From Microbacterium horticulturae (GTDB lineage: Bacteria > Actinomycetota > Actinomycetes > Actinomycetales > Microbacteriaceae), in the NCBI RefSeq assembly GCF_029094505.1, contig NZ_CP119108.1, forward strand, positions 1,302,001 to 1,366,000: a stretch of 64,000 nucleotides of DNA, read 5' to 3'. The notes beneath the pieces were generated by a model. It was not told the origin of the DNA, made no database searches, and worked only from the letters and a program-made list of their open reading frames with translations. Of this stretch, positions 21,101 through 31,063 are shown piece by piece; positions within the stretch are counted from its first letter, which is position 1; each line of letters begins with the position of its first letter. Position numbers and translations under genes: made by a program.

Positions 21101-21592
21101 ATGACGGTTCGGCAGATCCGCCTCTTCGGCGACCCCGTGCTGCGCAGCGAGTGTGCCCCGGTGGGCGACCTCGACGACGGCGTGCATGCGCTGGTCGACG
21201 ACCTCGTCGAGACCGTGCAACTGCCCGGCCGTGCCGGCGTCGCCGCGCCGCAGATCGGGGTCGGCGTGCGGGCGTTCAGCTACAACGTGGACGGTGAGAT
21301 CGGCTACGTGCTCAATCCGGTGCTCGTGGAGACCTCCGGCGAGCCCGAGCTGATCGGGGAGGGGTGCCTGTCGGTGCCCGGTCTCTGGCACGACGTGCTG
21401 CGCTACCCGCACGCCAAGGTCACCGGCATCGACGTCGACGGCAACCCGATCGAGGTCGAGGGCGACGGCGTGCTCGCGCAGGCGCTGCAGCACGAGACCG
21501 ACCACCTCGACGGCAAGCTCTACATCGACCGGCTCGAGTCGGCGGAGCGCCGCATCGCCATGCGCGAGATCCGCGAGTCCGACTGGTTCTGA
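21101..21592 (+). CDS. def: Peptide deformylase
   Basis: A 163-residue metalloenzyme that removes the formyl group from nascent N-terminal Met. All three signature motifs are present: GVAAPQIGVG (near 46-55), EGCLSVPG (near 87-94, with the metal-ligand Cys) and QHETDHLDG (near 129-137, the HExxH ligands and catalytic Glu). Full length for a type I or actinobacterial PDF. It follows the ATPase gene by 3 bp and is likely co-transcribed. No fmt gene is adjacent. Confidence 0.95.
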   Translation: MTVRQIRLFGDPVLRSECAPVGDLDDGVHALVDDLVETVQLPGRAGVAAPQIGVGVRAFSYNVDGEIGYVLNPVLVETSGEPELIGEGCLSVPGLWHDVLRYPHAKVTGIDVDGNPIEVEGDGVLAQALQHETDHLDGKLYIDRLESAERRIAMREIRESDWF

Positions 21593-21643
21593 GCGTCCCG
21601 GGGCTGCCCTGCGCCCGTCGGTGGTCGCCGCGGCTCCCGGCTC

Positions 21644-21688
21644 CTCTCGGGCAAATTCATATGAATTTGTCCTGTGCACATCAAACCG
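21644..21688 (+). repeat. Left terminal inverted repeat of the 1.4 kb element
   Basis: Begins CTCTCGGGC, contains the perfect 18-bp palindrome at 21652-21669 (core TTCATATGAA) and ends with the arm GTGCACATCAAACCG. The partner is 23011-23055 in inverse orientation. Confidence 0.75.
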
Positions 21689-21726
21689 GCGGCGGTTCGA
21701 TGTGCACAAGACGGTTTGATGTGCAC
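21674..21726. repeat. Perfect 15-bp inverted repeat with an extra internal arm
   Basis: GTGCACATCAAACCG at 21674-21688 pairs perfectly with 21712-21726. A third copy of the right arm with one mismatch lies at 21693-21707, so two alternative hairpins can form. Confidence 0.75.
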
Positions 21727-21822
21727 GGCGGCTGAGCGGCGGTTCCTCCACAGGCGGGGTGCTGCCGCGAGTTCTCCACGGATCTCCCGATCTGCCCTCA
21801 CGCCCTGCGGCAGTTCGCGAGC

Positions 21823-22869
21823 ATGGAGGCCATGCGCAAGCGCCACGAACCGTCGACCCTTCAGGCAGCACTGCACTCGCGGGCGGGTCTGCTCGCCATC
21901 GGGTGGTCAGACAAGAAGCTGAGGACAGCGGTCAAGCAGAAGACCGTGCGCCGGGTGCACCATGGCTGGTATATCTCCCAGCCGCTCTGGGATGAGCTGT
22001 TCTGGGAGCAGCAGCACCTCGCACACGTCATGGCAGTGGTCGCCGACGCCGAGGACGAGCTCGGACCCGTTGTGGCCCATGAGTCGGCGGCCGTTGTCCA
22101 CGCGCTTCCGCTGTATCGCGAATGTCCTCCGCGCGTGCACGTCCTCTGCATCGGCGACGCACGGTCTTCGAGCACGCCGGACGTCTTCCGCCATACGGGG
22201 CCCATCGACGCTTCCGAGATCACCGAGATCGATGGCATTCGCTGCACCTCGCTCGCGCGAACGGTCGTCGATGTCGCCCGGACCGCAAAGCTCGAGACTG
22301 CCGTGGCGTGCGCAGACGCCGCGTTGCGTCGAGTCGCGGTCACCGATGCGAACGATCAGTGGGCCTACGACGAGGACGCCGCGAACGAGCTGCGGCGCGA
22401 GATGCACGCTGTGCTCGACCGCATGCCTGGCGCACGTGGCGCTCGACGGGCGCGGTGGGTCATCGATTTCGCAGATGGTCGCGCTCAGCTGCCGGGGGAG
22501 AGCGTCAGTCGCCTGCGCCTGGTGCAGATCGGGTTCTGTGTTCCTGATGTTCAGGTCCGTATCGAAGGGCCCGGTGATTCGTTCTACGTCATCGACATCG
22601 ACGCCGAACGGTGGTGGGCGGAGTTCGACGGCAATGGCAAATACCTCGACCGCGACATGCGAAACGGTGCGTCGATCGAGCAGGTCATCCTCGCCGAGAA
22701 GAAGCGCGAGGACTGGATCCGTGCACGCACCGATCGGTTGACGGTGCACCTCGCGGACGAGCACGTCCGGACGGTCGACTCCTGTGTCCGGCGACTGGCC
22801 GAGTACGGCATCCAAGCGCCTCGACGGCGGCCGACGCCTGACCCGGGACCGCCCGCGCCCGGGTGTTGA
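21823..22869 (+). CDS. AbiEi-type winged-helix / Vsr-like nuclease-fold protein A
   Basis: A 348-residue protein. Residues 10-55 (ALHSRAGLLAIGWSDKKLRT, then VHHGWYIS) fit the AbiEi antitoxin N-terminal winged helix. A middle domain carries the SLARTVVDVAR pattern near 145-155. The C-terminal third (YVIDIDAERWWAEFDGNGKY near 256-275, then IEQVILAEKKREDWIR) fits a DUF559/Vsr-like PD-(D/E)xK fold. No toxin gene is adjacent, so a classical AbiEi/AbiEii pair is unlikely. It lies alone inside the inverted-repeat unit 21644-23055. The start is uncertain (ATG at 21823 or 21832); neither has an ideal ribosome site. Its function is unknown. Confidence 0.65.
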   Translation: MEAMRKRHEPSTLQAALHSRAGLLAIGWSDKKLRTAVKQKTVRRVHHGWYISQPLWDELFWEQQHLAHVMAVVADAEDELGPVVAHESAAVVHALPLYRECPPRVHVLCIGDARSSSTPDVFRHTGPIDASEITEIDGIRCTSLARTVVDVARTAKLETAVACADAALRRVAVTDANDQWAYDEDAANELRREMHAVLDRMPGARGARRARWVIDFADGRAQLPGESVSRLRLVQIGFCVPDVQVRIEGPGDSFYVIDIDAERWWAEFDGNGKYLDRDMRNGASIEQVILAEKKREDWIRARTDRLTVHLADEHVRTVDSCVRRLAEYGIQAPRRRPTPDPGPPAPGC

Positions 22870-22886
22870 GTGTCACCATCGTGCCA

Positions 22887-22980
22887 GCGCACATGGCGTG
22901 CGAGCGCACATGGCGTGCGAGCGCACATGGCGTGCGAGCGCACATGGCGTGCGAGCGCACATGGCGTGCGAGCGCACATG
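22887..22980. repeat. 17-bp tandem repeat, 5.5 copies
   Basis: The unit GCGCACATGGCGTGCGA is repeated five times without mismatch plus nine bases of a sixth. Each junction forms the small palindrome TGCGAGCGCA. The array joins directly to the right-end palindrome. Confidence 0.9.
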
Positions 22981-22983
22981 AAA

Positions 22984-23032
22984 CTGTCCCATGCACACGA
23001 AACCGGCGGGCGGTTTGATGTGCGTGGGACAG
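22984..23032. repeat. Long palindrome at the right end of the element
   Basis: Two 22-bp arms (22984-23005 and 23011-23032) match at 19 positions around a 5-base loop, with outer ends CTGTCCCA and TGGGACAG. The arm contains the same ATCAAACCG sequence as the left end. Confidence 0.8.
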
Positions 23033-23055
23033 ATTCATATGAATTCGCCGGAGAG
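23011..23055 (-). repeat. Right terminal inverted repeat of the 1.4 kb element
   Basis: The complement matches 21644-21688 at 39 of 45 bases. It includes the palindrome ATTCATATGAAT (23033-23044) and the flanking GCCGGAGAG that corresponds to the left CTCTCGGGC. Confidence 0.75.
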
Positions 23056-23177
23056 ACGGGGCGGGATGCCGCAGCCCGGCCCACCACGTCAACCCCGGCC
23101 GACACCGCCCATACCGAGCAGCCCGGTCAGCCCGGCCAGCCCAGACCGCCTACCCAGGCCAGCCCGGACCCGCGCCG

Positions 23178-25013
23178 CTACTTCAGCGAGACGTTCGTGG
23201 TCTCTACCGGGACGTTGTAGATCTCGTCGATCGTGCCCGCGAAGTCCTTGAGGATGGCGTGGCGCTTGATGCTGAACTTCGGCGTGAGGTGGCCGCTCTC
23301 CTCGGTCCACTCCGTTGGCAGGATCGTGAACTTGCGGATCGACTCGGCGCGCGAGACGAACTTGTTCGCCTCGTCAATCGCGCGCTGCACCTCGGCCCGC
23401 ACCTCCGGCGCGGCCGCGGCCTCTTCGAGCGTCATGTCGGCGCGCAGCCCGTTGTTGCCCAGCCACGTCGGCAGCATCTCGCTGTCGAGCGTGATCAGCG
23501 CCGCGATGAACGGCCGCTTCTCGCCGACCACGACCACCTGGCTCACCACGGGGTTGGCGCGGATGGGGTCTTCGAGGATCGCCGGCGCGACGTTCTTGCC
23601 GCCCGCCGTGACGATGATCTCCTTCTTGCGGCCGGTGATGGTCAAGAACCCGTCCGCATCGAACGACCCGATGTCGCCGGTGCGGAACCAGCCGTCGTCG
23701 AACGCCGCCGCCGTGGCCTCGGGGTTCTTCCAGTACTCGCGGAAGACGTTGATGCCCTTCACCTCGACCTCGCCGTCGTCGGCGAGCCGCAGCGAGACGC
23801 CCGGCAGCGCGGGGCCGACGGTGCCGATCTTCGTCTTGGTCGGCAGGTTCACGGTCGCCGGGGCGGTCGTCTCGGTGAGGCCGTAGCCCTCGAGAACCTT
23901 CACGCCGAGGCTCGCGAAGAAGTGCCCGAGACGCTCGCCGAGGGGCGCCGAGCCCGAGATCGCGTAGACGACACGTCCGCCCATCGCCTCGCGCAACGTG
24001 CTGTAGACGAGCTTGTCGAAGACCTTGAACTTCAGGCCCAGCCAGAACGGCACCTTCGCGCCCGATTCGACCAGCCGTGAATGCTCGATGGCCACCTTCG
24101 CCGCCGAGCGGAAGATCTTGCCCTTGCCGCCGGACTCTGCCTTCTGCTCGGCGGAGTTGTAGACCTTCTCGAACACGCGCGGCACCGCCAGCAGGAACGT
24201 CGGCTTGAACGAACCGAGCGCGGGCAGCAGCTGCTTGGTGTCGGGCTGGTGGCCGGTCTTCACTCCGGCGTGCACGTCGAGGATCGAGATGAATCGCGCA
24301 AACACGTGGGCGGTCGTGATGAACAGCAGGGTGGATGCGCCCGGGGTCTCGACGACCTCGTGCAGCGAGCGCGCGGAGTTGCGCGCCAGCTCGACGAAGT
24401 TCGAGTGCGTGAGCACGCAGCCTTTCGGGCGCCCCGTGGTTCCGGCGGTGTAGATGAGCGTCGCGATGTCGTCGGCGTTCGCGATCTGGCGGCGCCGCTC
24501 GATCTCGTCGTCCGCCACCGATGCTCCTTGCGCGCGCAGCTCGTCGAGCGCGCCGGTGTGCATGCTCCACGCGACGCGGATGAGCGGCAGGTCGGCGCGG
24601 GCCTCCTCAAAGCGCTCGGTGTGCTCGGGCAGCTCGGTCAGGCACGCGATGGCGCCCGAGTCGGAGAGATCCCAGTGGATCTGCGCGGATGAGCTCGTCT
24701 CGTAGACCGGCACCATCACGGCGCCCGCGTAGAACAGCGCGAAGTCCACGAGCGTCCACTCGTAGGTCGTGCGCGCGACGAAGCCGACCTTGTCGCCGGG
24801 CTCGATGCCGGCGGCGACGAAGCCCTTGGCCAGCTCGATCACCTGGCGACGGAACTCGGCGGCCGTGACATCCCGCCATCCGTCCCCTTCGGGCACGGCG
24901 AACAGCGCGAGCTCCGGCGTGGCCGCAACGCGCTCTTCGAGCAGATCGGTGATGTTCTCGTTCGGATCGGCGGGGACGATCACGGGGGCGTGGAACTCGG
25001 CGGCGGGGGTCAT
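23178..25013 (-). CDS. Long-chain acyl-CoA synthetase (FadD15-like)
   Basis: A 611-residue AMP-forming synthetase that activates fatty acids to acyl-CoA. The P-loop-like motif is LIYTAGTTGRPKGCVLTHSN near residue 180; AISGSAPLGERLGHFFASLG (near 345) and GYGLTETTAPATVN (near 370) form the adenylate-binding region, and FRTGDIGSFDADGFLTITGRK (near 440) is the hinge. The C-terminus ends TLKFSIKRH-like (LTPKFSIKRHAILKDFAG), typical of FadD15. The ATG at 25013 has GGAG eight bases upstream; longer in-frame reading upstream is non-coding. A plsC-like gene lies divergently 202 bp away, which fits a lipid-synthesis context. Confidence 0.9.
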   Translation of the reverse strand: MTPAAEFHAPVIVPADPNENITDLLEERVAATPELALFAVPEGDGWRDVTAAEFRRQVIELAKGFVAAGIEPGDKVGFVARTTYEWTLVDFALFYAGAVMVPVYETSSSAQIHWDLSDSGAIACLTELPEHTERFEEARADLPLIRVAWSMHTGALDELRAQGASVADDEIERRRQIANADDIATLIYTAGTTGRPKGCVLTHSNFVELARNSARSLHEVVETPGASTLLFITTAHVFARFISILDVHAGVKTGHQPDTKQLLPALGSFKPTFLLAVPRVFEKVYNSAEQKAESGGKGKIFRSAAKVAIEHSRLVESGAKVPFWLGLKFKVFDKLVYSTLREAMGGRVVYAISGSAPLGERLGHFFASLGVKVLEGYGLTETTAPATVNLPTKTKIGTVGPALPGVSLRLADDGEVEVKGINVFREYWKNPEATAAAFDDGWFRTGDIGSFDADGFLTITGRKKEIIVTAGGKNVAPAILEDPIRANPVVSQVVVVGEKRPFIAALITLDSEMLPTWLGNNGLRADMTLEEAAAAPEVRAEVQRAIDEANKFVSRAESIRKFTILPTEWTEESGHLTPKFSIKRHAILKDFAGTIDEIYNVPVETTNVSLK

Positions 25014-25214
25014 GCCGGCATCTCCTTCGGTACCGTTCGGGCTATTGCTGTGCCCTGAGTCTAGCCGGTGGCGCTGCGCGGCCGGTCTGGGATTCAGTCT
25101 CATGAATGACGATACGCGATCTCGCCGCGGCATCCGATTCCACGAATGCGGAGGAGGGATGCCGCAAGGCGGCGCGACCCCGCTGGGTAGACTCGTCCAC
25201 CGGAGGGGAGGTCC

Positions 25215-25907
25215 ATGTTCTACTGGCTCATGAAGTACGTGGTGATCGGCCCGATCGTGAAGGCGATCTTCCGCCCGTGGGTCGTCGGTCGCCGCAACGT
25301 GCCGGTGTCGGGCGCGGCGATTCTGGCCAGCAACCACCTCTCCTTCGTCGACTCGGTCTTTCTACCCCTGATGATCGACCGCCCGGTCGCGTTCCTGGCC
25401 AAGAGCGACTACTTCACCGGCCGGGGGATCAGAGGCTGGGCGACGCGACTGTTCATGAAGGCGACCGGACAGCTGCCCATCGACCGCTCCGGCGGCAAGG
25501 CGTCCGAGGCGTCGCTGAACACCGGTCTGCAGGTGCTCGGCCGCGGCGAACTGCTCGGCATCTATCCGGAGGGCACCCGCAGCCCCGACGGCCGGCTGTA
25601 TCGCGGCCGCACCGGCATCGCGCGCATGGCGCTGGAGGCCAAGGTGCCCGTGATCCCGGTGATCATGGTCGACACCGACACCATGATGCCGATCGGCACG
25701 ACACTGCCGCGCATCGCCCGCGTGGGCGTCGTGATCGGCGAGCCGATCGACTTCTCGCGCTACGCGGGCATGGAGAACGACCGGTACATCCTGCGCTCGG
25801 TGGTCGACGAGATCATGGTCGCTCTGCAGCGGCTCGGGCAGCAGCGCTATGACGACGTGTACGCCTCCACGGTGAAGGATCGCCTGCCGTCATCTGCGGA
25901 AGGCTGA
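25215..25907 (+). CDS. plsC: 1-acylglycerol-3-phosphate acyltransferase family protein
   Basis: A 230-residue PlsC-family acyltransferase that acylates lysophosphatidic acid or a related lipid at the inner face of the membrane. The catalytic HxxxxD motif is in ASNHLSFVDS (near 36-45); YPEGTRSPDG (near 117-126) is the phosphate-binding block, followed by VPVIPVIMVDT near 146. A short N-terminal hydrophobic stretch could associate with the membrane. Strong GGAGGGGAGG ribosome site. Several paralogues usually occur in actinobacteria, so the exact acceptor is not certain. It ends 26 bp before aroG. Confidence 0.88.
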   Translation: MFYWLMKYVVIGPIVKAIFRPWVVGRRNVPVSGAAILASNHLSFVDSVFLPLMIDRPVAFLAKSDYFTGRGIRGWATRLFMKATGQLPIDRSGGKASEASLNTGLQVLGRGELLGIYPEGTRSPDGRLYRGRTGIARMALEAKVPVIPVIMVDTDTMMPIGTTLPRIARVGVVIGEPIDFSRYAGMENDRYILRSVVDEIMVALQRLGQQRYDDVYASTVKDRLPSSAEG

Positions 25908-25933
25908 GCGAGCCCGGCGGATAGACTGGCGGG

Positions 25934-27271
25934 ATGCTGCAGCATCTCGACGCGCTCGACCATTGGCGGACTCTGCCCATCAAGCAGCAGCCGCTGTGGG
26001 GCGACCCCGATGCGGTGGCTGCGGCATCCAGCGAGATCGCCACGATGCCCCCGCTCGTCTTCGCCGGCGAGGTCGACCATCTGCGCGCGAAGCTCGCCGC
26101 GGCCGCGGCCGGCGGGGCGTTCCTGCTGCAGGGCGGCGACTGCGCCGAGACGTTCGCCGGCGCGACGGTCGACAAGATCCGCAACCGCATCAAGACGGTG
26201 CTGCAGATGGCCGTCGTGCTCACGTACGGCGCCTCGATGCCCGTGATCAAGATGGGGCGCATGGCGGGGCAGTTCGCCAAGCCGCGGTCGAGCGACACCG
26301 AGACGCGGGGGGATGTCACGCTGCCGGCCTACCGCGGTGACATCGTCAACGGCTATGACTTCACCGAGGGGTCGCGCGTCGCCGACCCGCAGCGGCTGCT
26401 GCGCGGCTACCACACGGCCGCCTCGACGCTGAACATCATCCGCGCCTTCACGCAGGGCGGGTTCGCCGACCTGCGCGAGGTGCACAGCTGGAACCAGGGC
26501 TTCGCGCAGAACCCCGCCAATCAGCGCTATGAGCGCCTGGCCGCTGAGATCGACCGCGCCATCAAGTTCATGGCCGCCGCGGGTGCCGACTTCGACGAGC
26601 TCAAGCGCGTCGAGTTCTACACCGGCCACGAGGGCCTGCTCATGGACTACGAGCGGCCCATGACCCGCATCGACTCGCGGACCGACCTGCCGTACAACAC
26701 CTCGGCGCACTTCCTCTGGATCGGCGAGCGGACCCGCGACCTCGACGGCGCCCACGTCGACTACTTCTCGCGCATCCGCAACCCGATCGGCGTGAAGCTC
26801 GGCCCCGCCACGACCCCCGAGACGGCCCTGGCGCTCATCGACAAGCTCGACCCCGAGCGCGAGCCGGGCCGGCTCACGTTCATCACCCGCATGGGCGCCG
26901 GCAAGATCCGCGACGCGCTGCCGCCGTTGCTGCAGGCGGTGAAGGATGCCGGTGCCACACCCCTCTGGGTCACCGACCCCATGCACGGCAACGGGATCAC
27001 GACGCCCACCGGATACAAGACGCGCCGCTTCGACGACGTCGTCGACGAGGTGCGCGGGTTCTTCGACGCCCATCGCGAAGCGGGGACGTTCCCCGGCGGC
27101 ATCCATGTCGAACTCACCGGCGACGACGTCACCGAGTGCCTGGGCGGCTCGGAGCACATCGACGAAGACACCCTGGCGACACGGTACGAGTCGCTGTGCG
27201 ACCCGCGCCTGAACCACATGCAGAGCCTCGAGCTCGCGTTCCTGGTGGCCGAGGAGCTCGAGAAGCGCTGA
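25934..27271 (+). CDS. aroG: 3-deoxy-7-phosphoheptulonate synthase, class II
   Basis: A 445-residue class II (plant-type) DAHP synthase that condenses phosphoenolpyruvate with erythrose 4-phosphate, the first step of aromatic amino-acid synthesis. Family marks are WRTLPIKQQPLWGDP, the metal- and substrate-binding GGDCAETFAGA (near 66-76), the FAKPRSSDTE loop (near 115), RGDIVNGYDF, and the C-terminal DPMHGNGIT and ELTGDDVTECLGGS. This is the type found in mycobacteria and other actinobacteria. Full length. A 10-bp-stem hairpin follows the stop. Confidence 0.95.
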   Translation: MLQHLDALDHWRTLPIKQQPLWGDPDAVAAASSEIATMPPLVFAGEVDHLRAKLAAAAAGGAFLLQGGDCAETFAGATVDKIRNRIKTVLQMAVVLTYGASMPVIKMGRMAGQFAKPRSSDTETRGDVTLPAYRGDIVNGYDFTEGSRVADPQRLLRGYHTAASTLNIIRAFTQGGFADLREVHSWNQGFAQNPANQRYERLAAEIDRAIKFMAAAGADFDELKRVEFYTGHEGLLMDYERPMTRIDSRTDLPYNTSAHFLWIGERTRDLDGAHVDYFSRIRNPIGVKLGPATTPETALALIDKLDPEREPGRLTFITRMGAGKIRDALPPLLQAVKDAGATPLWVTDPMHGNGITTPTGYKTRRFDDVVDEVRGFFDAHREAGTFPGGIHVELTGDDVTECLGGSEHIDEDTLATRYESLCDPRLNHMQSLELAFLVAEELEKR

Positions 27272-27280
27272 GCCGGAGGC

Positions 27281-27323
27281 CACGGCGGCCTGCGGCTTGA
27301 GTTCCCGGCGTCCGGCCGCCGTG
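27281..27323 (+). terminator. Hairpin after aroG
   Basis: CACGGCGGCC at 27281-27290 pairs perfectly with 27314-27323 across a 23-base loop. There is no T-tract; the position 9 bp after the stop suggests termination or 3' end protection. Confidence 0.5.
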
Positions 27324-27339
27324 CGGCGTGCTGTCACGG

Positions 27340-27365
27340 TGCGGTGTCCTGTTGCGGTGTCCTGT
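27340..27365. repeat. Two tandem 13-bp units
   Basis: TGCGGTGTCCTGT occurs twice head to tail, followed by TGCGCTGCGCTGCG. Confidence 0.85.
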
Positions 27366-27416
27366 TGCGCTGCGCTGCGCCCCGCCACGATGCGCCGCCC
27401 CGCCACGCGCGTACGA

Positions 27417-27483
27417 CTCCGCGAGAACACGTCTGTGCACGCTTTTGTGCGCTTCCTGCGTGCATAAGCGTGTTGTCGCGGAA
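27417..27483. repeat. Hairpin repeat family B, copy 1
   Basis: 26-bp arms (27417-27442 and 27458-27483) agree at 21 positions around a 15-base loop. The left arm reads CTCCGCGAGAACACG then TCTGTGCACG. Confidence 0.8.
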
Positions 27484-27533
27484 CGGGGCACCGTGGTCGG
27501 AGGCGTACGGGCAGGGGGATGCCGCGGCTCCAG

Positions 27534-27600
27534 CTCCGCGAGAACACGCCTGTGCACGGTGCAGCCGCGAGAAGGCGTGCACGAGAGTGTTCTCGTGAAG
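27534..27600. repeat. Hairpin repeat family B, copy 2
   Basis: 25-bp arms (27534-27558 and 27576-27600) agree at 20 positions. The left arm reads CTCCGCGAGAACACG then CCTGTGCACG, in the same orientation as copy 1. Confidence 0.8.
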
Positions 27601-27624
27601 GAAGGAGCTCGTGGCGGGGCGCCC

Positions 27625-27633
27625 TGTGGATAA
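27625..27633 (-). promoter_or_regulatory. Perfect DnaA-box sequence upstream of gene B
   Basis: The minus strand reads TTATCCACA, the consensus DnaA box, 40 bp upstream of the start of the nuclease-fold gene. A single box can occur by chance and no oriC features are present. Confidence 0.4.
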
Positions 27634-27672
27634 CTTCGGAGGCACCGCCGCGGAACCGAGCAGGATCGAGGG

Positions 27673-28617
27673 ATGCCGCATCCACCACTCTCATCGGAGT
27701 TCCTCGGGACATCGTTCACCTTCGCCGAGGCTCGAGCAGCGGGGGTCGCGCGACGGCGCCTCGCCCACGTCGACGTCGGCCATCCGTTTCGTGGCGTGTA
27801 CACGCAGGGCGTGGATCTGACCGACCTCGAGCAGCGGTGTCTGGCTCTGCGACCGCATCTGCGCGCAGAGCACTGGTTCAGCCACGTGACGGCTGCGCGG
27901 TTGTGGGGCATACCGCTGCCCTGGGCCGAGGCCGATGACGACCCGCTCGACGTGTTGGTGATCGGCACGCACCACCCGGCGCGCCGGGCGCAGGTTCGCG
28001 CATGGGAGACCGCCGATCCCGAGGTGGGGCGTGAGATCCGGGGCCGTGTTCCGCTCGTGGCCGCGCACGAGGCCTGGTGTCAGGTGGCCGCTCTCGCCGG
28101 GGACGAGCGCATCTCTGACGACCGGCTCGTCGCCGCAGCCGACTACGTGCTCAGCGGCGTCTACCACCCGATGACAGACACCTGGTCCCCGCTGAGCACG
28201 CGCGAAGAACTCGAGAATGCGGTCACCCGGAGGAAGGGACGTCGCGGCTCGAGGCGCATGCGCGCCGCTCTCGAGCGTGCCCGCGGGACGGTCGGCTCGG
28301 TCATGGAAACCCTGCTGCGTCTCGGACTCATCGGCCACGGCCTGCCCGAGCCAGAGCGGCAGGTTCCTGTAGACACCGCCGTCGGGCTTCTGCATGCCGA
28401 CTTGGGATACCCTGCGGCCCGCCTGCTCATCGAATACCAGGGCGACGAGCATCGCATATCGCGGGAGCGGTGGCTGCGCGACCTGACGAGGGCCCAGCTC
28501 TTCGAAGACGCCGGGTTCCGCACCATGTTCGTCGGGGCGGACGACGTCCTCCCGGACTGCACGGCGCTCGCGGCGCGGGTTCGGCGGGCGCTCGCGGGGC
28601 GTTCGTTCGGCGGGTGA
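27673..28617 (+). CDS. AbiEi-type winged-helix / DUF559 nuclease-fold protein B
   Basis: A 314-residue protein with the same architecture as the gene at 21823. N-terminal AbiEi-like winged helix at about 8-48 (FTFAEARAAGVARRRLAHVD, then FRGVYTQG). The C-terminal DUF559/Vsr-like fold has candidate catalytic residues in LHADLGYPAARLLIEYQGDEH: Asp near 243, Glu near 254 and a following His. The tail LTRAQLFEDAGFRTMFVGADD is typical of the family. AGGA lies eight bases before the ATG. No toxin or partner gene is adjacent. Four hairpin elements surround it, two on each side, and its last codons are duplicated downstream. Its function is unknown; nuclease or DNA-binding activity is inferred from the fold only. 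Confidence 0.72.
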   Translation: MPHPPLSSEFLGTSFTFAEARAAGVARRRLAHVDVGHPFRGVYTQGVDLTDLEQRCLALRPHLRAEHWFSHVTAARLWGIPLPWAEADDDPLDVLVIGTHHPARRAQVRAWETADPEVGREIRGRVPLVAAHEAWCQVAALAGDERISDDRLVAAADYVLSGVYHPMTDTWSPLSTREELENAVTRRKGRRGSRRMRAALERARGTVGSVMETLLRLGLIGHGLPEPERQVPVDTAVGLLHADLGYPAARLLIEYQGDEHRISRERWLRDLTRAQLFEDAGFRTMFVGADDVLPDCTALAARVRRALAGRSFGG

Positions 28618-28705
28618 CGCCGAACAGACTCCACGAGAACACGTTCGTGCACGGTTTTGGCGGGCAAGGGTGTGCAGAGACCTGTTCTCGCGTTATGGGA
28701 GGGGG
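28588..28705 (+). repeat. 118-bp direct repeat, copy 1 (gene B tail plus hairpin)
   Basis: Matches 28873-28990 at about 109 of 118 positions. It covers the last ten codons and stop of gene B and the whole hairpin of family B copy 3. Confidence 0.85.
28634..28690. repeat. Hairpin repeat family B, copy 3
   Basis: 19-bp arms (28634-28652 and 28672-28690) agree at 15 positions. The left arm is CGAGAACACG then TTCGTGCAC, preceded by CTCCA as in the other copies. It begins 16 bp after the gene B stop. Confidence 0.8.
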
Positions 28706-28710
28706 CAGGG

Positions 28711-28861
28711 GTGGATGCTGCGACCGGCGCCCGCGGACGGGGCGGGATGCCGCGACCGGAGCGCGAAGGACGGGGAGTGGATGCTGCGACCGGCGCCCGC
28801 GGACGGGGCGGGGATACCGCAACCGGCGCCCGCGGACGGGGACGGATGCCGCGATCGGCCT
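28711..28861. repeat. 33-bp tandem repeat, about 4.5 copies
   Basis: Units start at 28711, 28744, 28777, 28810 and 28843 with exact 33-base spacing. The pattern is GTGGATGCTGCGACCGG then CGCCCGCGGACGGGGC. Units 1 and 3 are identical; the others carry point changes. No unique spacers, so it is not CRISPR. Confidence 0.9.
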
Positions 28862-28872
28862 TCGCGGCGCGG

Positions 28873-28990
28873 GCGCTCGCGGGTCCTTCGTTCGGCGGGT
28901 GACGCCGAACAGCCTCCACGAGAACACGTTCGTGCACGGTTTTAGCGGGCAAGGGCGTGCAGAGACGTGTTCTCGCGTCAGGGGAGGGAG
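28873..28990 (+). pseudogene. Duplicated tail of gene B plus hairpin (118-bp copy 2)
   Basis: Offset exactly 285 bp from 28588-28705. The first ten codons reproduce the gene B C-terminus (ALAGPSFGG and stop in place of ALAGRSFGG), then the intergenic sequence and hairpin copy 4. It is a gene fragment and has no start of its own. Confidence 0.8.
28919..28975. repeat. Hairpin repeat family B, copy 4
   Basis: 19-bp arms (28919-28937 and 28957-28975) agree at 16 positions; the left arm is identical to copy 3. The right arm (GTGCAGAGACGTGTTCTCG) is one base closer to a perfect palindrome than in copy 3. Confidence 0.8.
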
Positions 28991-29056
28991 AGGATGCCGC
29001 CCGCGATCGGCCCGCGAGGGGCGGTGGATGCCGCGACCGGCGCCCGCGGACGGGCG
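28991..29056. repeat. Two further 33-bp repeat units
   Basis: Units 28991-29023 and 29024-29056 follow hairpin 4 directly, as the main array nearly follows hairpin 3. The second unit closely matches the unit at 28711. Confidence 0.75.
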
Positions 29057-29101
29057 AGAACCGGCGGCAAGCGGCCGCGCCGCCACGGCACAGGTTCGCC
29101 G

Positions 29102-31063
29102 TCAGAACGAGCCGCTGATCTTCAGCTCGATCGTCGTACCCGACGCGCACAGGGTGCCGTCGCCGTTGCACGTCGATCCGTCGACGGGGGACTGTGAGGT
29201 GACCTTGGTGACGCCGTTGATGACCGCATCCCACAATCCGTTGTAGGTCGCGCGGAATCCCGCCTGCGACAGCGTCTGCTTCGCCTCGTCGCGGGTCTGA
29301 CCCGTGACATCGGGCACCTCGAACAGCTGCGGCCCCTTCGAGATGACGAGCGTCGTCTTGTCTCCGGGGCGCCACGAGCCGCCGCCGTCACGGTCCGCCA
29401 TGCTGATGACGGTTCCCTTCGCGGCGGAGTCGCTGTACTGCTCGGAGTGCGCGGTGACGGTGATGCCCTTGTCTTCGAGCTTGGCCACGGCGTCATCCAG
29501 CGACATCCCGATCACGCTCGGCAGGGCGCCGAGCGACACCGACAGCGTCGCGGAGTCGCCCTGGTGCACGGTGCAGCCCTTGGCGCAGTCGACGTCTTTG
29601 CCGCCGTCGGCGGGGTGCACGACGGCGCCGATCACGGTGCCTTCGTCATCGTCGGTGTAGAAGGTCTTGCTCTTCTCGGCGACGGTGATGTGCTGCGCGC
29701 CGAACGTCGCGCGCGCGTCCTTCTCCGGCATGCCCTCGAGCGTGTCGATCGTGGCTTCGGCGGGTCCCAGAGAGACCGTCACGGTCACGGTCGCGTCCTT
29801 GTCGAGACGAGTGCCCGGCCCGGGGTCGGTGGAGATCACCCGGCCCGCGGCGACGTCCAGGCTGTTCTGACCGGCCTTCTTCGCGCCCAGCTGCTGTTCG
29901 GCCAGCGACGCCTTGGCCTGCGCGAACGTCTTGCCCGCCACGGTCGGCACGATCACCTGCGATCCCGGTCCCGATCCGAACCACAGACCGATGCCCGCCG
30001 CGACGACGGCCAGCACGATCACGATCGCGAACAGCCACCAGCCCTTCGCCCGGCGACGGCCGGCCTGGTGTCGCAGCCGGGTGGAGTTGTCGTCGCCCTC
30101 GACGGGGGTATCGACCTCGACGCTGGGCGGCAGCACTTTCGTCAGCTCGCCCGTGTCGAGATGATCGGATGCCGCGACCCCCGCGACGGCGAGCGTGCGC
30201 TGCACCTGCGGGGCGATCCCCAGCTGCTGCTCGATCTCGCGCAGCCGCGCGAGCATCACGCCGGCGTCGGTGGGTCGATCATCGGGAGACTTCTCGGTGG
30301 ACCACAGCACGAGCTCGTCGAGCGGCTCGGGAACGCCGGGGTTGCGCACGCTGGGGCGGGGGACCGACTCGGTCGCGTGCTGGAACGCGATCTGCATCGG
30401 CTGCTCGCCCTTGTAGGGCTGCTCACCGGTGAGCATCTCGTAGAGCATGATGCCCAGCGCGTAGATGTCGCTACGGGCGTCGGCGGTGCCGCGCGTGACC
30501 AGCTCGGGCGCGAGGTACGCGATGGTGCCCAGCAGCATCTGCCCGCTGCCGGTGTTGGCGGTCGTGGCGCGGGCGAGCCCGAAGTCGCCGATCTTGATGC
30601 GGCCATCCTCGGCCAGCAGCACGTTCTCGGGTTTCACATCACGGTGCACGATGTTCGCGCGGTGCGCCGCCGACAAGCCCGACAACACGGCGTCCATGAT
30701 CGTCACCGCCTGCGCGAGGGTCAGTCGCTTCTGCTCGCGCAGCAGTTCGCGCAGCGTGATGCCGGGAAGGTACTCCATGACCAGATAGGCCATCTCGCCC
30801 TCTTGGCCCTGGTCGAACACATTGACCACGTGCGGGTCGGCCAATCGCGCGGCCGCACGCGCCTCCTGGATGAACCTGCTCTGGAAGACGGCGTCGTCGC
30901 TGAGGTGGCTGTGCATGACCTTCAGAGCCACGCGACGCTCCAGGCGCAGGTCGGTCGCGACGTATACGGTGGCCATTCCGCCCCGGGCGATGCGCGCGCG
31001 AACCCGGTATCGGCCGTCGACGAGACGCCCGATGAGAGGATCGGCCTGCGCGCTGGTGGTCAC
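29102..31063 (-). CDS. PASTA-domain serine/threonine protein kinase (PknL-like by context)
   Basis: A 653-residue transmembrane kinase. The kinase domain is at about 14-275: the glycine loop IARGGMATVYVATD, the ATP-binding Lys in RRVALKVMH, the catalytic HRDVKPENVLL and DFGLARA. A basic juxtamembrane segment and one transmembrane helix (near 340-360) lead to about four extracellular PASTA repeats, which sense cell-wall fragments in this family. The GTG start has a GAGG directly upstream. Neighbours are an Rv2175c-like protein and a polyprenyl synthase, as around mycobacterial pknL, but mycobacterial PknL lacks PASTA domains whereas the corynebacterial one has them. Confidence 0.92.
   Translation of the reverse strand: MTTSAQADPLIGRLVDGRYRVRARIARGGMATVYVATDLRLERRVALKVMHSHLSDDAVFQSRFIQEARAAARLADPHVVNVFDQGQEGEMAYLVMEYLPGITLRELLREQKRLTLAQAVTIMDAVLSGLSAAHRANIVHRDVKPENVLLAEDGRIKIGDFGLARATTANTGSGQMLLGTIAYLAPELVTRGTADARSDIYALGIMLYEMLTGEQPYKGEQPMQIAFQHATESVPRPSVRNPGVPEPLDELVLWSTEKSPDDRPTDAGVMLARLREIEQQLGIAPQVQRTLAVAGVAASDHLDTGELTKVLPPSVEVDTPVEGDDNSTRLRHQAGRRRAKGWWLFAIVIVLAVVAAGIGLWFGSGPGSQVIVPTVAGKTFAQAKASLAEQQLGAKKAGQNSLDVAAGRVISTDPGPGTRLDKDATVTVTVSLGPAEATIDTLEGMPEKDARATFGAQHITVAEKSKTFYTDDDEGTVIGAVVHPADGGKDVDCAKGCTVHQGDSATLSVSLGALPSVIGMSLDDAVAKLEDKGITVTAHSEQYSDSAAKGTVISMADRDGGGSWRPGDKTTLVISKGPQLFEVPDVTGQTRDEAKQTLSQAGFRATYNGLWDAVINGVTKVTSQSPVDGSTCNGDGTLCASGTTIELKISGSF

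Follow-up and report, generated by a model that had tools for sequence, protein, structure and literature searches.

In a 64,000-nucleotide stretch of the Microbacterium horticulturae chromosome (the window; NZ_CP119108.1, positions 1,302,001 to 1,366,000), two genes, here called A and B, each lie within their own set of palindromes, and copies of these palindromes are scattered over the chromosome without the gene. The arrangement resembles the repetitive extragenic palindromic (REP) repeat systems and appears to be an undescribed counterpart that evolved independently of them. We consider it probable that a dedicated nuclease-fold protein keeps each REP-like population of palindromes, presumably by binding, cutting, and spreading them, and thus works like a RAYT with its REP in the absence of an HUH enzyme. 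This reading is built on the pairing of gene and palindrome, the dispersal of the palindromes, their genome specificity, their concerted change between species, and the conservation of putative catalytic residues in the proteins.

Genes A and B and their palindromes

Both genes are open reading frames, and high-confidence AlphaFold models of the two proteins match an AbiEi fold and a Vsr-like fold, which together fill most of the chain. An earlier reading of this DNA from its letters (the sequence-only reading) had proposed that A and B share an architecture and that each sits within its own palindromes; the open frames, the inverted repeats, and the models bear this out. The features are listed below, with a strand where one applies.

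21823..22869, + strand: gene A, 348 aa, AbiEi-like part and C-terminal Vsr/homing-endonuclease-like domain (reading frame, PADLOC, structure model, residue conservation)
27673..28617, + strand: gene B, 314 aa, AbiEi-like part and C-terminal Vsr-like/DUF559-like domain (reading frame, Pfam, structure model, residue conservation)
21649..21672: family A outer palindrome upstream of gene A, with a CATATG center (sequence; inverted-repeat scan; same module in dispersed copies)
21674..21707: family A inner hairpin, two 15-nt half-sites with a 4-nt loop (inverted-repeat scan; half-site search)
21712..21726, − strand: third family A half-site (inverted-repeat scan; half-site search)
22886..22970, + strand: five 17-nt head-to-tail units resembling the family A half-site, running into the downstream element (by eye)
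22972..23049: family A downstream element, with half-sites at 22972-22986, 22991-23005, and 23011-23025 (half-site search) and an outer palindrome at 23028-23049 (by eye)
27422..27478: family B palindrome, upstream copy 1, with arms at 27422-27441 and 27459-27478 (half-site search)
27539..27595: family B palindrome, upstream copy 2 (inverted-repeat scan; half-site search)
28634..28690: family B palindrome, downstream copy 3 (half-site search)
28919..28975: family B palindrome, downstream copy 4 (inverted-repeat scan; half-site search)

The palindrome at the gene B locus measures 20 + 17 + 20 nt and is present in four copies. At up to 3 mismatches, the family B half-site GAGAACACGNNNGTGCACG has 11 matches in the window where 1.80 are expected from dinucleotide shuffles, and the family A half-site GTGCACATCAAACCG has 8 where 1.42 are expected; in both cases none of 100 shuffles gave as many. 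The end of gene B and its downstream palindrome appear to have a second copy about 285 bp downstream (28600-28695 and 28885-28980, by eye). Separately, GGATGCCGC occurs 37 times in the window against 2.61 expected from dinucleotide shuffles, a count reached in 0 of 100 shuffles.

Pfam gives sub-threshold matches only: AbiEi_4 for gene A, which has no MTES_1575 or DUF559 match, and MTES_1575 and DUF559 for gene B, with scores of 15.6 and 14.7 against gathering cut-offs of 38.2 and 20.6, respectively. PADLOC calls gene A AbiEi and makes no call for gene B; neither protein has a match in PHROGs, and NCBIfam returned none. In the A-type proteins, E223, D255, E264, G267, and K270 are invariant (58 chosen rows of 120 listed). 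In the B-type proteins, E212, E254, G257, and H260 are invariant, and D243 is conserved in at least 90% (59 chosen rows of 87). These residues fit a PD-(D/E)XK/Vsr site, the putative catalytic assignment being our own.

Dispersed copies and sister genes

The genome of the window (G000) is a single contig of 3.65 Mb. At up to 2 mismatches, it holds 90 matches to the family B half-site, compared with 10 for the reversed control, and 53 to the family A half-site, compared with 0. Among the family B half-sites, 23 opposite-strand pairs lie exactly 39 bp apart. Family A elements with two outer palindromes, sought as pairs 50-70 bp apart, are 86 bp long in 10/14 cases and 87 bp in the other 4 in G000, and 86 bp long in 9/9 cases in M. 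protaetiae (G157). Family B elements are about 57 bp long. The dispersed copies that were read are palindromes without a gene, and many of them lie shortly after a stop codon (assessed partly by eye).

With an approximate gene call, we placed the copies of four families relative to their neighboring genes. Of 55 sites, 6 were left out: 1 was undetermined, and 5 were called inside a gene, although L042 and L058 among these have the look of true copies. Of the remaining 49 intergenic copies, 19 lie in convergent, 24 in tandem, and 6 in divergent gaps, compared with 24, 71, and 40 among 135 background gaps in 400 kb of G000, and the copies are thus scarce in divergent gaps. Taken together, the palindromes form a population within the genome, mostly in intergenic DNA, while the gene stays at one locus, with one gene per specificity.

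Two places show family B half-sites 1315 bp apart with the same inner ends (L038, G000:C1:2639310-2640608, and G000:C1:3217854-3219152). At L038, the intervening DNA contains a 440-aa transposase-like open reading frame and is apparently an insertion element inside a palindrome, possibly of the IS30 type; the second place was read in part.

Searches found five further family members in G000 beside A and B. Four of them (L002, L003, L007, and L008) are each bracketed by a different repeat, as judged by eye, the one at L007 being an array of short repeats in opposite sense on the two sides. The fifth, a short paralog (L010), has no flanking palindrome visible by eye. Gene and palindrome are therefore paired in 6/7 family genes of this genome, four of these by eye. 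The L003 gene (L003:1495-2498) is split over two reading frames, and the palindromes on both of its sides remain. At up to 1 mismatch, the L002 repeat has 13 matches in G000, 1 in G033, and none in 37 further genomes. A comparison of about 400 kb from G000 with as much from G157 gives 2 versus 0 matches for L002, 6 versus 1 for L003, 53 versus 5 for L007 (the 53 including the L007 locus itself), 7 versus 0 for L008, and 10 versus 1 for family B. The sequence-only reading had also named GTGCAC as a common core. This stands for families A and B and fails as a rule, since the half-sites of the four sister repeats differ from it by eye, and we have dropped it as a shared core.

Matching flanks across the genus and concerted change between two species

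The gene family is present in 39/39 sampled genomes, with 1 to 10 matches each. If each gene has its own repeat, the upstream flank of a gene should match its own downstream flank and not those of other genes. Following an exploratory run on 34 loci, we compared 400-bp flanks at 81 loci (92 minus 9 at contig ends and 2 duplicates), leaving out 762 syntenic pairs of 3240. Own flanks score a median of 31.5, compared with 11.5 for 4956 mismatched non-syntenic pairs, and lie above the 99th percentile of the latter in 65/81 loci. A run on the 81 loci with flanks that held homologous neighbor genes put own flanks above the 95th percentile in 0/81, its mismatched set being unusable. In a second, mostly named set of 72 loci (82 minus 10 with flanks under 400 bp), 56 pass the 99th percentile, compared with 5/282 windows shifted along the same loci, which were not matched for intergenic flanks; without the 11 loci that share a gene with the first set, 47/61 pass. 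Both Tsukamurella loci, from the order Mycobacteriales (Microbacterium belongs to the Micrococcales), pass with scores of 72.5 and 55.5. The elements also share an end tag: CGAG stands at one or both ends of 42/65 elements, compared with a mean of 7.0 and a maximum of 15 after base shuffling, although these 65 are not independent cases because many of the loci are orthologs of each other.

Dispersal is likewise seen outside G000. In 200-kb samples taken away from the gene, a copy of the genome's own element turns up in 5/6 additional genomes, with a score higher than any match in the seven other genomes sampled; the sample of G013 has no such copy. Local-alignment scoring across genomes gave 38 sites in 3480 kb for elements in their own genome and 24 in 20040 kb in other genomes, with own strictly highest in 8/12; because those other genomes served to fix the threshold, their low rate is in part built in, and the elements of G007, G013, and family A were trimmed at the start and that of L007 shortened. 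A comparison by 14-mers at one mismatch failed as a test of our reading, being swamped by background (46.3 own versus 46.31 other sites per Mb; own highest in 2/12).

The half-sites of the window are specific to their genome. At up to 1 mismatch, among the 39 genomes without G157, the family A half-site has 23 matches in G000, 1 in each of five congeners, and 0 in the other 33; the five stray matches lie outside palindromes (by eye). At the same mismatch limit, the family B half-site has 38 matches in G000, 13 and 5 in two others, and 0-3 in the other 363. In G157, an ortholog of gene A (67% identical protein) lies between the same neighbors as gene A with a different palindrome; G157 has 43 sites of it, at 27 places, and neither G000 nor G348 has any.

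Several orthologous sites are occupied in both G000 and G157, each by the version of its own species. For three orthologous element pairs, the identities are 0.605, 0.628, and 0.663, compared with a mean of 0.601 for unrelated pairs, while the flanks of the same three sites are 83-86% identical. Within each genome, the elements have mean identities of 0.781 and 0.826, and 1/5000 label permutations was as extreme. Orthologous pairs are thus about as unlike as unrelated ones and copies within a genome are alike, so that the dispersed copies differ between the species just as the gene-side versions do. The dispersed copies at orthologous sites have changed in concert between G000 and G157.

Alternatives, known systems, and a proposed mechanism

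Several results weigh against a palindrome population kept by its own protein. The flanks of 16/81 and 16/72 loci fall below the 99th percentile, and the loci are not independent, the 81 falling into 14 synteny groups, of which one has 30 members and another 25. The identity comparison between G000 and G157 used element sets gathered with genome-specific patterns, which favors the within-genome figures, and the orthology of the three pairs rests on BLAST of their flanks. At up to 2 mismatches, the family A half-site of G000 still has 6 matches in 400 kb of G157, with G000 itself giving 14, and the presumed G157 counterpart of the L003 repeat fails to tell the two genomes apart (5 versus 4). 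Palindrome similarity tracks protein identity among close relatives only. For non-syntenic pairs the correlation is not significant (126/1000 and 186/1000 permutations as good; 48/1000 for all pairs in the second run), nor is it at the shared locus between aroG and pknB (140/2000), where palindromes differ between species and the identity of gene B shows no correlation with that of aroG (rho 0.046); this last analysis dropped 6 of the 29 gene B homologs and, of the 24 loci remaining, 2 more (L001 being one). The expectation of the sequence-only reading that the flanking palindrome follows the protein phylogeny is thus not borne out beyond close relatives. G224 has 13 family-B-like matches, several in full palindromes (at L263, L264, and L267-L270), with no gene B homolog at E ≤ 1e-40, and none of its family genes found by profile has a B-like palindrome beside it. 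This is either an orphan family or one whose cognate gene is too distant for the profile. G189, with the closest gene B homolog, has 1 family B match, and in G102 the gene B ortholog is flanked by a different palindrome, with B-type palindromes at 2/4 loci read. We found no clean insertion with an empty target; presence and absence of a site at L118 (209 versus 9 bp) is accompanied by other intergenic change. The arms of 20 family B copies show 11 covariations where 8.9 are expected, a number reached in 418/2000 re-deals. Also in G224, a more distant relative with an in-frame stop (L292) has yet another matching repeat on both sides, by eye.

The sequence-only reading had proposed mobile single-gene elements. 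There is no sign of recent mobility of the gene: 24/29 loci have the gene B homolog between aroG and pknB, gene A and its two best orthologs lie between def and fadD (the other 27 A homologs, at most 49% identical, lie elsewhere), and tblastn with gene A as the query returned no phage record and 2 plasmid records. We have accordingly rejected a recently mobile gene; the dispersed part is the palindrome. In 8/24 of the aroG-pknB loci (among L234-L262), the gene is inverted relative to its neighbors, and the locus seems to flip, perhaps via the flanking inverted repeats.

The strongest competitor, which we nevertheless regard as unlikely, holds that the proteins are DNA-binding regulators or chromosome organizers whose binding sites, the palindromes, co-evolve with them by selection, the nuclease fold being a leftover or otherwise used. 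It would account for the AbiEi-like part (the Pfam name of AbiEi is that of a transcriptional regulator), for sites in the gene's own upstream flank, and for an exact half-site spacing (39 bp in 23 pairs; element length 86 or 87 bp) with a variable spacer and arms that covary no more than by chance, as in protein-binding sites. However, copies are scarce in divergent gaps (6/49), where operators are expected, and the catalytic-looking residues are conserved; 1 to 10 members per genome, with repeats that differ by locus and species, point to turnover rather than a stable regulon. A homing-like drive, in which the protein cuts sites and recombination copies in the palindrome, or the gene with its palindromes, so that the locus is an old homing element, appears less likely still. 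The gene B homologs keep one locus (24/29), the dispersed copies that were read lack the gene, and the gene is intergenic, with palindromes on both sides (no search was made for an intron or intein host); the same position and geneless copies would also set the family apart from the I-Bth0305I homing endonuclease.

The nuclease fold and the PADLOC AbiEi matches of gene A would suit a defense in which the protein attacks incoming DNA that carries or lacks the palindrome, but we think this very improbable: the host itself has dozens of sites, NCBIfam gives no match, gene B has no PADLOC match, and no methylase or other defense gene was found among the five neighbors scanned with Pfam. These neighbors are household genes (peptide deformylase, AMP-binding enzyme, acyltransferase, DAHP synthase, and PASTA kinase). 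The absence of a methyltransferase among them also sets the loci apart from restriction-modification, a distant one not having been sought. We give least credence to the palindromes being ordinary terminators or unrelated repeats that merely gather beside genes. Many copies do lie shortly after a stop codon, but own flanks match at most loci against 5/282 of the shifted windows (unmatched for intergenic flanks), and no terminator-like site coincides with the window palindromes: one scan placed a single site at 22517, inside gene A, and another placed none. The sequence-only reading had named terminators as one outcome that would undo it, and we have rejected that the palindromes are terminators only. 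A structured RNA was also rejected, there being no Rfam match within 21500-29200 and no significant compensatory change among the family B copies.

The closest known parallel to a palindrome population kept by its own protein is that of REP/REPIN repeats with RAYT (TnpA-REP), the REPtrons. In the papers that describe them, a resident chromosomal gene, one per specificity, adjoins its own palindromic repeat, which is dispersed in intergenic DNA, with several gene-repeat pairs per genome and a GTAG end tag (PMC3116915, PMC3733652, PMC8266576). Our loci likewise combine a gene with its own flanking repeat (6/7 in G000; 65/81; 56/72), one gene per repeat family, dispersal (four families genome-wide, one of them that of G157, and 5/6 other genomes sampled, with G224 the exception as a repeat for which no gene was found), and a short end tag, CGAG in place of the GTAG of those descriptions. 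The elements here (about 57 and 86 bp) are larger than REPs, given as 20-40 bp in PMC3733652. Whereas RAYTs are HUH tyrosine transposases, the proteins here have an AbiEi-like part and a Vsr-like nuclease fold, with no Y1 transposase among the Pfam matches of A and B up to E = 1. The enzyme is unrelated to RAYT, and the system therefore works like a REP/RAYT pair and is not a member of that family.

Other known families share parts of this architecture. The models place an AbiEi fold in both proteins, as in the AbiEi antitoxins of type IV toxin-antitoxin systems, from which they differ by an extra nuclease-fold domain, dispersed palindromes, and the lack of a toxin, including AbiEii, among the five scanned neighbors. 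The sequence-only reading had noted the missing toxin partner and judged the AbiEi antitoxin label inadequate; the neighbor scan agrees on the former and supports the latter, because no toxin lies beside the genes. The C-terminal fold and conserved residues resemble those of the Vsr, DUF559, and MTES_1575 families, although the Pfam scores for the latter two stay below the gathering cut-offs. MTES_1575 is described as a Vsr-fold restriction endonuclease in a Microbacterium testaceum protein (PMC3710099), and two passages of that paper mention no repeats. In open-licence PubMed Central (subscription papers and preprints being outside its scope), the association is not described in the titles and abstracts among the matches listed; papers on DUF559 with palindromes concern other subjects by title and abstract, AbiEi with DUF559 gave none, and nothing was found for repetitive extragenic palindromic with Actinobacteria and RAYT.

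From the pairing of gene and palindrome, we infer that each protein recognizes its cognate palindrome. The AbiEi-like part would probably read the half-sites of one palindrome family, and the Vsr/homing-endonuclease-like domain would probably nick or cut at or near the palindrome. Breaks or nicks at cognate sites could then be repaired from other copies, or copies could be re-made at new sites, and the palindrome population would in this way be kept, spread, and homogenized, changing together with the protein. Nicking, or cutting only during replication or repair, seems more likely than free cutting, which would leave the host chromosome with dozens of breaks. Recognition of double-stranded half-sites fits better than recognition of a folded strand, given the exact spacing, the variable spacer, and the lack of arm covariation.

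We also entertain, at somewhat less than even chances, a broader account in which the Actinomycetota independently evolved a second kind of repeat-and-enzyme system: a large AbiEi-Vsr family with many fast-changing palindrome specificities, whose nuclease would drive both the spread of the repeats and the concerted replacement of dozens of copies when specificity shifts, with the CGAG tag marking the processing site and the inner half-site conferring specificity. If this is true, a dedicated enzyme came to serve a population of REP-like repeats more than once, starting from unrelated proteins, and the scattered palindromes of a large actinobacterial genus would gain an owner. With the G000/G157 pair, the concerted evolution of dispersed repeats can be tested directly, and the family offers many natural pairs of protein and palindrome in which to study how DNA specificity changes.

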